Part shown: piece by piece, positions 3,009 to 13,581 of the stretch
How positions within the stretch are numbered: the first letter of the stretch is position 1
Layout: each line of letters begins with the position of its first letter
IMG/VR virus record: IMGVR_UViG_3300031576_000031
Coordinates: 1-64,000 of that record
Length of the DNA stretch: 64,000 bases
DNA from: a virus
Reading direction: 5' to 3' (one strand)
The notes under the pieces: model-generated
Databases searched by the model: none
What the model was told of the DNA's origin: nothing
What the model saw: only the letters and a program-made list of their open reading frames with translations
Position numbers and translations under genes: made by a program

Positions 3009-4661
3009 TTAGTCGTCATCTTCTTGGCTTAGATAGTCCCAGACATTGTTGATGAGAGGTTTCTCATCATCGATTCTGACCGGACCTGATTGAGACGCAT
3101 CATCGGCCCCGTCTGGATTATATACTCTAATATTTGGCTCTCCACCGCCTTGATGTCTCAACCTGACTTCCCTATAACGCCAAGCGTCAAGGTGATGATC
3201 GCTGCAACTCGTGGCGATATCATCCAAATCTCTTTTGCTCCTTGTAGCTTCCTCGATTTCCTTTATAAAACCCTGACAATATTTCTGGTTTACAAATAGT
3301 TTCCTTCTGCCAGAATTATCCCTAAGCGTCCGCCTGCATATCGGCCAGCCCTCTTTGCGAGTAATCTTCTTAGTTGGAACAATTCTAAAAAAACTATTGT
3401 AATTATTAAAATTTCTGATCTCCTGCATTTGTGCAGAATCACCAACTTGCATTCTCGTATTCTTTATTCCTATATCTCTAACGAAATTAAGAATCGATTC
3501 TGCGGTATCGTTCGATGGCTTATGAACATAAGCTAGGGAGGCAAACATAATACTATTGCCTTCGTCATCCTCCTGCCAAATCTGGCAGACTGTGGGAGAT
3601 TCCCCACCGTTAGTAAAATCAAATGCTAAATCGGTAGGACGATGAGGATTGTATTCATAATCGATTATATTAAATTTGCGATCCCACTCTGGAAAGAATT
3701 TATTCTGTCGTACGGGTTCAAGACACTCCTTCTGTGCGATCCAAGTCGTTCTATCAGTGGTAAGGAATTTATTTATCGAATCCTCAATAGGGATGGAACC
3801 AGTTGATTTTGCCAAATCTCCACGACAACTCGGCAGAAGAGGGCATTCTCCACATTTGGAGTATGCCTCAATAATAATCGTCTCTCCCGGATTGTGAATA
3901 TCCTCGACGTTATAAATCTTTCTATCCTTCCCTCTACGCCATTCTGGACAGGGTTCAGAAACCTCCTTATAGCACCAACTTATAAACTTATAGGCATCCT
4001 TACCAGTTCTCTCCAAAAGTTTTTGCATGGTCCCATCAACAAACTTCCTAGTCGAAATATAGGCAATATGAGCATCATTGGTCTCATTCCCGCTTGGCAT
4101 CATTCTAGCTTCTGTAATGACATCCTGTTCAATAAGCTCACACTCATCGATCCTGAGTTTCTGAGGATGCTGACCATTGGTAGATTCTACCGTTGCAACA
4201 ACCTGATGGTACTTCGATCCATTGCGCAAAGTAATCAACCTTTTTAGCATCTTGTCAAGAATGCCACTTTCCATGACAATGGAGTTCTTCAAGTATCTTC
4301 TTACATAGGAAAAGCATTTCTCGGATTGCTCCCTGATGGCCCCCATACAAATTGTTTCACAATTGGGCTTTAACAACAATTCAGAAACAATCAACTTCGC
4401 CTCAGAGAGAGTTTTGAAGCCCTCTCTCGGGCCTAGAGCTACAATATTCTTACTCGAACTTTCCTTGTAATCAGGTAAGTCTATCTTATAGGATTCCCAA
4501 ATGAAATCCCAAGGAGTTTGATGGAAATCACATATATTCTTGAATACCGTCTTCTCGCCAGTAAGGAGGTATAAGAATCGATATAGCTCTTGTTTTGTTT
4601 GAGGAGGATTTAATAGGAAATTATATAATTCACTTGGCTTGACCTTCTTCTGGAAGGACAT
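3009..4661 (-). CDS. terL: Terminase large subunit
   Basis: A 550-residue packaging motor. The ATPase half has a degenerate Walker A at residues 77-84 (GPREGFKT) and a Walker B at 169-175 (LRIDECE). The nuclease half has RNase H-like acidic residues at D348 (DLAFDFTN), D408 (MQVGDSA) and D488/D492 (SDHHLDAWR). Between them lies a cysteine cluster (C270, C273, C279) that may bind zinc, an insertion seen in some terminase subgroups. The protein powers DNA translocation into the prohead and cuts the concatemer. It is the first gene of the leftward head operon and precedes the portal. No small terminase was recognised nearby. The ribosome binding site is weak. Confidence 0.92.
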   Translation of the reverse strand: MSFQKKVKPSELYNFLLNPPQTKQELYRFLYLLTGEKTVFKNICDFHQTPWDFIWESYKIDLPDYKESSSKNIVALGPREGFKTLSEAKLIVSELLLKPNCETICMGAIREQSEKCFSYVRRYLKNSIVMESGILDKMLKRLITLRNGSKYHQVVATVESTNGQHPQKLRIDECELIEQDVITEARMMPSGNETNDAHIAYISTRKFVDGTMQKLLERTGKDAYKFISWCYKEVSEPCPEWRRGKDRKIYNVEDIHNPGETIIIEAYSKCGECPLLPSCRGDLAKSTGSIPIEDSINKFLTTDRTTWIAQKECLEPVRQNKFFPEWDRKFNIIDYEYNPHRPTDLAFDFTNGGESPTVCQIWQEDDEGNSIMFASLAYVHKPSNDTAESILNFVRDIGIKNTRMQVGDSAQMQEIRNFNNYNSFFRIVPTKKITRKEGWPICRRTLRDNSGRRKLFVNQKYCQGFIKEIEEATRSKRDLDDIATSCSDHHLDAWRYREVRLRHQGGGEPNIRVYNPDGADDASQSGPVRIDDEKPLINNVWDYLSQEDDD

Positions 4662-5140
4662 AAGAATTTCATTACTCTTAGTAGTCTATAATCCCCAGAA
4701 ACACCTGACAGAGCCTCGACTTTTAATGGTATTAATCATGTCAGCTTATATCAGTATTAACATCAAGTATACTCATCTTTATTTTTCTTTTCTTTTCATC
4801 TCTTTTATCCCTTCTCAATCATGGGCCTCCTCAGAGGCCACACATGGTAGATGATGAATCTACTTCTTCTCTTGTCTCTAGGAGACACTCACAAGCTAAA
4901 TAATACACTAAAGAGGACAATTTCCCCCAGAACACGATTTTAGAAAAAATGTAACAAACATGGGTGAAATAGATACGAAACAACACCCACAGCCACCCGT
5001 AGTGGCGCATCGGAGCCGAAAACGGAACTATAAGAAAAAGCGAAGTTCAAATTTAATTGAATACTTTTCTTTGTAATGAATGTGATTATGTTTCGTCATA
5101 CTGGTAGTAATCAGATGAAAGTAAGAAATATGCGCATCAT
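4662..5140. other. Intergenic region between terL and the tRNA locus
   Basis: About 480 nt of AT-rich sequence between the leftward head operon and the rightward tRNA block, so it should hold promoters for both. I see no convincing -35/-10 pair. It contains a short perfect hairpin, GGCCTC-CTCA-GAGGCC, at 4824-4839 without a following U-run, and pyrimidine-rich tracts at 4770-4815. One possible short plus-strand frame is listed separately. No other gene is supported. Confidence 0.6.
4960..5076 (+). CDS. Possible 38-residue basic peptide
   Basis: An ATG frame of 38 codons beginning MGEIDTKQHPQPP and rich in Arg and Lys in its middle (HRSRKRNYKKKR). It lies in the leader between terL and the tRNA genes on the tRNA strand. 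There is no ribosome binding site and no family was recognised, so this may be chance. Confidence 0.2.
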   Translation: MGEIDTKQHPQPPVVAHRSRKRNYKKKRSSNLIEYFSL

Positions 5141-5216
5141 CCACTCGTAGCTCAATGGGCAGAGCAAGCTCTTTATAAGGGCTAGGTTGCGTGTTCGAAT
5201 CGCGCCGGGTGGACCA
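5141..5216 (+). tRNA. tRNA-Ile(UAU)
   Basis: A 76-nt cloverleaf with CCA encoded. The acceptor stem CCACTCG pairs with CGGGTGG (one G-U), the D stem is GCTC/GAGC, the anticodon stem AGCTC/GGGCT carries loop TTTATAA with anticodon UAU, and the T arm is GCGTG-TTCGAAT-CGCGC. The anticodon reads AUA, a codon many bacteria use rarely but which AT-leaning phages use more, so the gene probably supplements host decoding. A UAU wobble base can also be modified; the sequence does not show this. Confidence 0.93.
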
Positions 5217-5673
5217 TGAAATTTGGTTCTTTGAAAACCAGTATAAATAACCCGATCCGGGGGCGCGGAAGCTATAGAGGCTGAAAGTGTGTCGTGAACT
5301 CCGACACAGGCGTAAGACTGTAACGACATAGAGGCGAGGATTTCCAAAGCACTTGCCATAGGATGGCGAAATATGAACCTGTAGTATTAGTCGTCGGTAA
5401 GTTGTAATGACTCCAATGACCCTCCGCCCCTCCGCATCGGGTTATAAGATTTAGTCCGGCATACAACAACGGACGAGGCTAAGGCCGGGTGGCCGTTCTG
5501 GTAACGGTGACAGTAGGGCGGATACCTACCAATCCCGGATGGGAAGCGTGCGGTTGACCATGTATGCCGTGATTCATGGAAGGAACGCCACGGATCGTAT
5601 CTTCTGTCATGTAGAAGATCAGGGCTGTGGAAGTCAAAGTTTGAGTCTTTGCCGTGAGATTCTATAATTACAT
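5217..5673 (+). ncRNA. Candidate large structured phage RNA between two tRNA genes
   Basis: The 457 nt between the two tRNAs have no convincing ORF but many perfect complementary segments. A 10-bp stem, ATAACCCGAT (5247-5256) with ATCGGGTTAT (5436-5445), closes a domain that includes a 7-bp hairpin (5288-5294 with 5302-5308). An 8-bp stem, CGGCATAC (5457-5464) with GTATGCCG (5562-5569), closes a second domain with hairpins at 5493-5507, 5513-5529 and 5533-5544. A third element is CCACGG (5588-5593) with CTGTGG (5625-5630), enclosing the 7-bp hairpin 5599-5605/5613-5619. A small hairpin lies at 5635-5651. Location beside phage tRNAs recalls the GOLLD and ROOL RNA classes; tRNA processing could release its ends. 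I did not recognise a known consensus, nor tmRNA, RNase P or group I intron cores. Confidence 0.6.
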
Positions 5674-5748
5674 TGCGGGATTGGCTAATTGGTAAGCCGC
5701 CAGATTGTTACTCTGCTCATGGTAGTTCGACTCTACCTCCCGCAGCCA
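5674..5748 (+). tRNA. tRNA-Asn(GUU)
   Basis: A 75-nt cloverleaf with encoded CCA: acceptor TGCGGGA/TCCCGCA with discriminator G, D stem GGCT/AGCC, anticodon loop TTGTTAC with anticodon GUU, T arm GGTAG-TTCGACT-CTACC. The first anticodon-stem pair is a C-C mismatch, the only defect seen. It reads AAC and AAU. It follows the structured RNA directly, so the three are probably one precursor. Confidence 0.9.
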
Positions 5749-5786
5749 AGAACTTATTATATGGCTGTAGAATGGTCTTATGACTG

Positions 5787-5809
5787 CGTAGGATTCGATT
5801 TAAGCCATT
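5787..5809 (+). repeat. Copy 1 of a dispersed 17-23 nt element
   Basis: The core ATTCGATTTAAGCCATT occurs here and at 16172-16188 in the same orientation. A copy with one change lies inverted at 21666-21688, where 22 of 23 positions match this one. Copy 1 and copy 3 flank the accessory block as inward-facing inverted repeats. Function unknown: promoter, regulator site or recombination site are all possible. Confidence 0.7.
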
Positions 5810-5874
5810 CTTATCGTTTAACCCTGCCGATAGATGGGTATGCTATACAAACCATCGATTTTTGGAGAATTTCA

Positions 5875-12353: not shown

Positions 12354-12623
12354 ATGACTGATTCATATCGCAAAAGAGAGAATGCTGGGCCGCCTCATAA
12401 GGAGATTAAACTTGAGGAGGCAAAGAGCAAATGGGGTAATAAAATAAAGCCGAATAAGAAAACTCCCAAAGAATTTCGAATACAGTGTAGGAGGTGTGGG
12501 TATTTAATGGGCACAATCGTTGTAACGGAACGATGGAGCCGAGAGTATATAATAGCGTTGTCAAAGAAGTTCGGGACAAAGTGGCCCATTTGTAAAGGTT
12601 GCAAGGAGAAGAAAAATGACTGA
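12354..12623 (+). CDS. Zinc-ribbon protein, 89 residues
   Basis: A lysine-rich N-terminus is followed by CRRCG and, about 40 residues later, CKGCKEK, giving a four-cysteine zinc site. The gene overlaps the RNA ligase start by 8 nt. Possible nucleic-acid-binding partner of the ligase, inferred from position only. Confidence 0.6.
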   Translation: MTDSYRKRENAGPPHKEIKLEEAKSKWGNKIKPNKKTPKEFRIQCRRCGYLMGTIVVTERWSREYIIALSKKFGTKWPICKGCKEKKND

Positions 12624-13581
12624 ATTTGTAGTGGAAGTGGTTAAGATCGGTGCGATTGAGAAACATCCCAATGCGGATACGCTTTCCGTGACGAAGATTG
12701 GAGAATATCCAATTATTATCCGTTCAACCGATTTCAAGGAGGGTGATCTGGCAATATATGTTCCGGTTGATGCCGTTGTACCTCTTGAGCATCCCCCTTT
12801 CTCTTTCTTGAAGAAGCCTAGAATTAAGGCTATGAAGCTGCGTGGCGTATTCTCAATGGGGCTCCTCCTTCCTATCAGCGAAGGAATGATTGAGGGTCAG
12901 AATGTTGCGGAGACACTCGGAATCAAGAAGTATGAGGAGCCACTTGAAGAGGAGAAGCTCTCTACTGGCGGAGATTGTGAACATTGCCCATTTGAATTCC
13001 CGAGGTTTACAGATATTGAATCTTATCGTCGTTATCCTACGATCTTGATTGATGGTGAGGATGTGGTTCTGACGGAGAAGGTTCATGGGACCAACTCCCG
13101 TTTTGTTTATACCCAAAATAGGCTTTGGGTTGGAAGTCATAATCAGATCAAGAAGCGCGAATTGAATAGTATCTGGTGGAAGACGGCGGAGAGGTATGAA
13201 CTCGAAAAGAAACTCGCCAACGCGCCCGATATTGTTCTATTCGGCGAGATATTTGGTTGGGTTCAAAGCCTTCGTTATGGGCATGAGAGAGGCGCGGCTA
13301 GCCTTCTCTTCTTCGACGCACTTGATCTTAGGCAAATGAGATATCTTGACCATGATGATTTTCTTGCGGTCCTTCGGCGAGTGGAGCTTCAGCCAGTACC
13401 AGAATTCTATCGTGGGCCTTATAACAAGGACCTTCTGAAATTGGCAGAGGGTAACTCTATAATTGCTGGCGCTTCTAATGTGAGGGAAGGTATCGTTATC
13501 AAGCCTACCATCCGCCGGTACGATGATCGGGTCGGCAGGGTTATTATTAAGCATATCGGAGAAGGATATCTTTTGAAGTAG
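12616..13581 (+). CDS. RNA ligase, DRB0094/Rnl5-like
   Basis: A 321-residue ATP-dependent ligase. Motif I is KVHGTN with nucleotidyl-accepting K155; motif III LFGEIFG, motif IIIa SLLFFDA, motif IV EGIVIKP and motif V IIKHIG follow in order. The first about 100 residues (IEKHPNADTLSVTKIG) match the N-terminal OB-like module found before the ligase domain in the DRB0094 family rather than the bare T4 Rnl2 design. It seals nicked RNA through a ligase-AMP intermediate. With two phage tRNAs and a large structured RNA in the same genome, repair of cleaved tRNA during host defence is a plausible job. GGAG supports the start. Confidence 0.88.
   Translation: MTEFVVEVVKIGAIEKHPNADTLSVTKIGEYPIIIRSTDFKEGDLAIYVPVDAVVPLEHPPFSFLKKPRIKAMKLRGVFSMGLLLPISEGMIEGQNVAETLGIKKYEEPLEEEKLSTGGDCEHCPFEFPRFTDIESYRRYPTILIDGEDVVLTEKVHGTNSRFVYTQNRLWVGSHNQIKKRELNSIWWKTAERYELEKKLANAPDIVLFGEIFGWVQSLRYGHERGAASLLFFDALDLRQMRYLDHDDFLAVLRRVELQPVPEFYRGPYNKDLLKLAEGNSIIAGASNVREGIVIKPTIRRYDDRVGRVIIKHIGEGYLLK

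Follow-up and report, generated by a model that had tools for sequence, protein, structure and literature searches.

In an uncultured tailed phage, two tRNA genes enclose a 457-nt interval that is best read, with partial support from the sequence, as a structured, tRNA-flanked RNA, and that is a strong single-sequence candidate for a tRNA-adjacent structured phage RNA outside the known families. The window analyzed here covers positions 1 to 64,000 of a linear 73,433-bp IMG/VR record (IMGVR_UViG_3300031576_000031), whose genes include those for a portal, a large terminase, a DnaE-type DNA polymerase and helicases, together with sugar-nucleotide genes. We place at roughly 55% the probability that the interval yields a stable plus-strand non-coding RNA of ~457 nt that would be made together with its neighboring tRNAs, released by tRNA processing, and active as a folded molecule. 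An earlier note on this DNA had proposed a large structured RNA between phage tRNAs, a proposal supported by where the interval lies, by its lack of any reading frame, and by a long-range helix that is far from random (Table 1).

Table 1. Coordinates of the candidate RNA, its predicted structural elements and the flanking tRNA genes, numbered from the first base of the window.
Feature	Positions	Strand	Evidence
tRNA-Ile, anticodon UAU, CCA encoded	5141-5216	+	ARAGORN; Rfam RF00005, 60.2 bits
Structured non-coding RNA candidate, 457 nt	5217-5673	+	No ORF; fold z; long-range helix; GC
Possible closing helix, CUUUGA + CCA with UGG + UCAAAG	5229-5240/5628-5639	+	Constrained fold only; inference
P1 5′ strand, AUAACCCGAU c CGGGGG c GCGGA	5247-5269	+	Partner 5423-5445; pair probabilities 0.98, 0.88, 0.98
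Hairpin UGUGUCG/CGACACA, within domain 1	5288-5308	+	Pair probability 0.70
Local hairpin GCCAU/AUGGC, within domain 1	5355-5367	+	Sequence
P1 3′ strand, UCCGC c CCUCCG c AUCGGGUUAU	5423-5445	+	Partner 5247-5269
Domain 2, closed by CGGCAUACA/UGUAUGCCG	5457-5569	+	9 bp, 5457-5465/5561-5569, pair probability 0.98
Small hairpins, domain 2 multiloop	5492-5508, 5513-5529, 5533-5544	+	Pair probabilities 0.79, 0.82, 0.92
Perfect 7-bp hairpin AUCUUCU/AGAAGAU, 3′ domain	5599-5619	+	Alternative to MFE pairing
tRNA-Asn, anticodon GUU, CCA encoded	5674-5748	+	ARAGORN; Rfam RF00005, 42.8 bits

Both flanking genes prove to be real plus-strand tRNAs and, because their CCA ends are encoded, the interval between them is exactly 5217-5673, as the earlier note had placed it; the 3′ end of tRNA-Ile sets the 5′ end of the candidate RNA. 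Within 4662-5874, the tRNA/RNA/tRNA array is the sole plus-strand unit, bounded on one side by the minus-strand terminase gene and on the other by a short plus-strand ORF followed by minus-strand genes. Immediately before tRNA-Ile we recognized no clear promoter, and immediately after tRNA-Asn no strong terminator, which counts against the RNA reading. The inter-tRNA stretch has a GC content of 0.49 versus 0.435 for the genome, and on the tRNA strand G exceeds C and A exceeds T (A 123, C 96, G 129, T 109); from this skew and the orientation of the tRNAs, we infer that the candidate RNA lies on the plus strand. The UAU anticodon of the phage tRNA-Ile would read AUA, a task for which the lysidine modification of the usual bacterial CAU tRNA is not required. 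Elsewhere in the window, a plus-strand gene (12616-13581) specifies an RNA ligase (PF09414 with a PHA02142 OB fold, phrog_968) that possibly repairs cut tRNAs.

The interval had been described as some 450 nt devoid of a plausible ORF, and this description holds: no plus-strand ORF inside it exceeds 42 aa, and its minus-strand ORFs (82, 65 and 52 aa) match no Pfam or PHROG family, the two longer ones also yielding nothing significant by tblastn (best E = 0.7). With neither a plausible ORF nor a protein-family match, a protein-coding reading is rejected. Inside 5217-5673, no tRNA or tmRNA is found by Rfam or by the default, intron, tmRNA and mt modes of ARAGORN; the permissive pseudogene modes return weak antisense calls only, and the sole intron-allowing call is one of these, a 412-nt tRNA-Gly in pseudogene mode that overlaps the intact tRNA-Asn. 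Both flanking tRNAs are complete. A degenerate or intron-bearing tRNA is likewise rejected. Unusual tRNA-like genes occur in a different phage (locus L170 of G018, IMGVR_UViG_3300031276_000007), where the minus strand at 2250-1766 carries examples 122-154 nt in length, whose D arm and T arm are separated by long insertions; all that ARAGORN reports at this locus is two ordinary tRNAs.

The principal structural feature of the interval is a long-range helix, P1, which brackets domain 1 (5247-5445). What had been noticed as a 10-bp stem across 190 nt is the core of this element (AUAACCCGAU/AUCGGGUUAU, 5247-5256/5436-5445) and turns out to be stronger than claimed: beyond C•C mismatches it gains 6 bp and then 5 bp more, such that 21 of 23 positions are paired over a span of 199 nt, the two mismatches being the only exceptions. 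The ungapped-stem score of P1, 45.5, stands ~8.5 sd above the mean of 150 dinucleotide shuffles (mean 23.3, sd 2.6, maximum 31.0) and exceeds the scores of all 69 further 457-nt windows taken from this phage, the best of which reaches 33.5. Domain 1 folds with a z of -4.1. The interval as a whole has a minimum free energy of -153 kcal/mol (z -2.67), which none of 100 shuffles equals, a value only moderately unusual here given that control windows of the same phage average a z of -0.62 (sd 1.37). The minus strand is nearly as stable as the plus strand (z -2.30), and folding energy therefore leaves the strand unsettled. Because the whole-interval z is moderate and P1 is extreme, the case for structure rests on the long-range helix and not on bulk energy.

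Downstream of P1, the fold predicts a second domain and a 3′ domain. The closing stem of domain 2 corresponds to a helix previously given as 8 bp across 105 nt, which is indeed present, but which measures 9 bp and spans 113 nt. Inside it, a second stem (CAAC/GUUG, 5467-5470/5553-5556, pair probability 0.85) follows, and the domain encloses three to four small hairpins; the local hairpins are present at the positions given in Table 1. The perfect hairpin of the 3′ domain, when forced, costs ~2 kcal/mol of the -153. A constrained fold that includes the helix pairing the two ends of the interval reaches -149.9 kcal/mol, as against the minimum of -153; by joining the 5′ and 3′ ends, such a helix would fit the expectation for a closed, self-contained RNA.

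Searches for relatives of the interval returned no homologue, whether by blastn against 50,697 phages and 72,556 plasmids, by scanning four exact 15-mers through IMG/VR and one 17-mer through 84,980 genomes, or by comparing it, with blastn and with two covariance models each built from a single sequence, to loci and dozens of records of distantly related phages, which were located via their portal and their DNA polymerase (up to 49% identity); as scans for exact words and models of one sequence can detect homologues only when these are fairly close, these blanks are not proof of absence. Most matches to the 15-mers and the 17-mer fall within coding frames; not one is close to a tRNA, and their similarity does not extend further. 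Of the phages examined, G011 has the most similar terminase (46% identity); the region upstream of its terminase gene is coding instead, a point against the RNA reading, and its record is free of tRNAs. The lack of a homologue in any search, together with a whole-interval z that is moderate for this phage, speaks for a rival view in which the interval is just a tRNA spacer, either non-functional or evolving fast, with hairpins that stem from chance or mobile DNA and serve no RNA function. We nonetheless regard such a spacer as unlikely, as phages seldom retain 457 nt of idle sequence and as P1, with its 21 pairs in 23 positions, lies far outside both the shuffles and the control windows.

The genes for the large terminase (3009-4661) and the portal (410-2971) are near neighbors of the interval, which raises the idea of a DNA or RNA element for packaging or replication, such as a pac or cos site, an origin region, or a packaging RNA of the phi29 type. 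Consistent with this idea, the interval is located upstream of the gene for the large terminase, no small-terminase ORF occupies the usual place, and the ~480 nt from the terminase gene to tRNA-Ile (4662-5140) are also non-coding and contain small hairpins as well as a pyrimidine-rich tract. The structure itself, however, sits between two tRNAs that are transcribed away from the terminase, and it matches no Rfam family; moreover, the phi29 packaging RNA is much shorter (~174 nt) and partners with an ATPase of a different family. We give a packaging or replication element only a slim chance.

None of the 4,227 covariance models of Rfam 15 matched the interval at E ≤ 10, RNase P RNA and tmRNA included, and the best-scoring model, U6, reached 13.8 bits, well short of its cut-off of 44. 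The earlier note had wondered about a divergent GOLLD or ROOL RNA, an idea that draws on a shared habit (phage-borne, beside tRNAs, large, branched) but did not survive the covariance-model check: neither ROOL (RF03087) nor GOLLD (RF02032) produced a hit at E ≤ 10, be it within the interval or across the whole 73-kb record, the ROOL blank being without a positive control, since 14 control genomes gave no ROOL match either. Membership in either family is very improbable. Least probable of all is the relic of a ribozyme, for example of a group I intron, which was prompted by AAGAUUUAGUCC at 5446-5457, a 12-mer resembling the group I S element (it agrees with the S consensus at 11 of 12 letters), and by a group I intron within a tRNA of a related phage (L069), but which we reject because RF00028 is blank at E ≤ 10 in the same cmscan mode that detects the L069 intron at E = 1.5e-10 (making the blank informative), the P7 partner strand GACUA is absent, P8 has no room between P1 and the S-like element, and both tRNAs are intact with no interrupted exon. 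The L069 intron splits a tRNA-Leu(UAA)-like gene (2940-2640, minus strand) and, at 47.2 bits, is missed at the curated RF00028 cut-off of 50.

In the favored reading, that of a tRNA-processed structured RNA, tRNA-Ile, the RNA and tRNA-Asn would be transcribed as one precursor, from which host tRNA-processing enzymes would free the RNA while maturing the tRNAs. Its 5′ end would arise by 3′ trimming past the CCA of tRNA-Ile, and its 3′ end by RNase P cleavage at the 5′ end of tRNA-Asn. ROOL and GOLLD have lately been shown to build RNA-only cages, ROOL forming an octameric RNA nanocage, and GOLLD expression rises during lysis. The freed RNA would work as a fold, with no reading frame, in the manner of these two abundant, self-assembling phage RNAs while being a sequence relative of neither, and by analogy it may be abundant, and possibly self-assembling, during infection.

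A second candidate large phage RNA lies in the same L069 locus (G004:C1:11000-18500), which derives from a 157-kb phage (IMGVR_UViG_3300030004_000001). There, ~970 nt on the minus strand (3980-3005), inside an array of 13 tRNAs, contain no ORF of at least 60 aa save for a short overlap at the low end, fold at -302.5 kcal/mol (z -6.6, 12 shuffles), and display a perfect 15-bp stem (GGAGACTTCTACATG/CATGTAGAAGTCTCC) along with two related modules. This element has no Rfam match of note at E ≤ 10 and is dissimilar to the RNA in our window; it is arguably the stronger candidate of the two.

Set against known systems, the candidate shares with the phi29 packaging RNA its nature as a structured phage RNA close to packaging genes, but differs in size, in its place between tRNAs, and in matching no family. 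Its likeness to group I introns (RF00028) is limited to the isolated S-like 12-mer; model match, P7, P8 and interrupted gene are all missing. ROOL and GOLLD are both phage-encoded and often near tRNA islands (PMC12286853). Like GOLLD, the candidate is phage-borne and tRNA-adjacent and has long-range stems, yet GOLLD members often exceed 800 nt and carry a conserved 3′ region that is not found in its 457 nt. ROOL, likewise large, branched and non-coding, and present in phages and prophages, differs in being described by a 574-position model whose P1-P19 sequence and structure the candidate fails to match at E ≤ 10, and in that the candidate has no homologues found; by its position exactly between tRNA-Ile and tRNA-Asn, the candidate shares the ROOL location near phage tRNA genes. 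Tentatively, and at somewhat short of even odds, we suggest that the candidate represents a new class of large phage RNA freed by tRNA processing, with neither a sequence nor a fold related to those of GOLLD and ROOL. If so, several unrelated large RNAs would have settled independently in phage tRNA clusters, as the L069 candidate also hints, and the candidate would offer a smaller system for release by tRNA processing and for self-assembly; an unrelated RNA at a position of the GOLLD/ROOL type would suggest that it is the niche that matters, rather than one RNA lineage.
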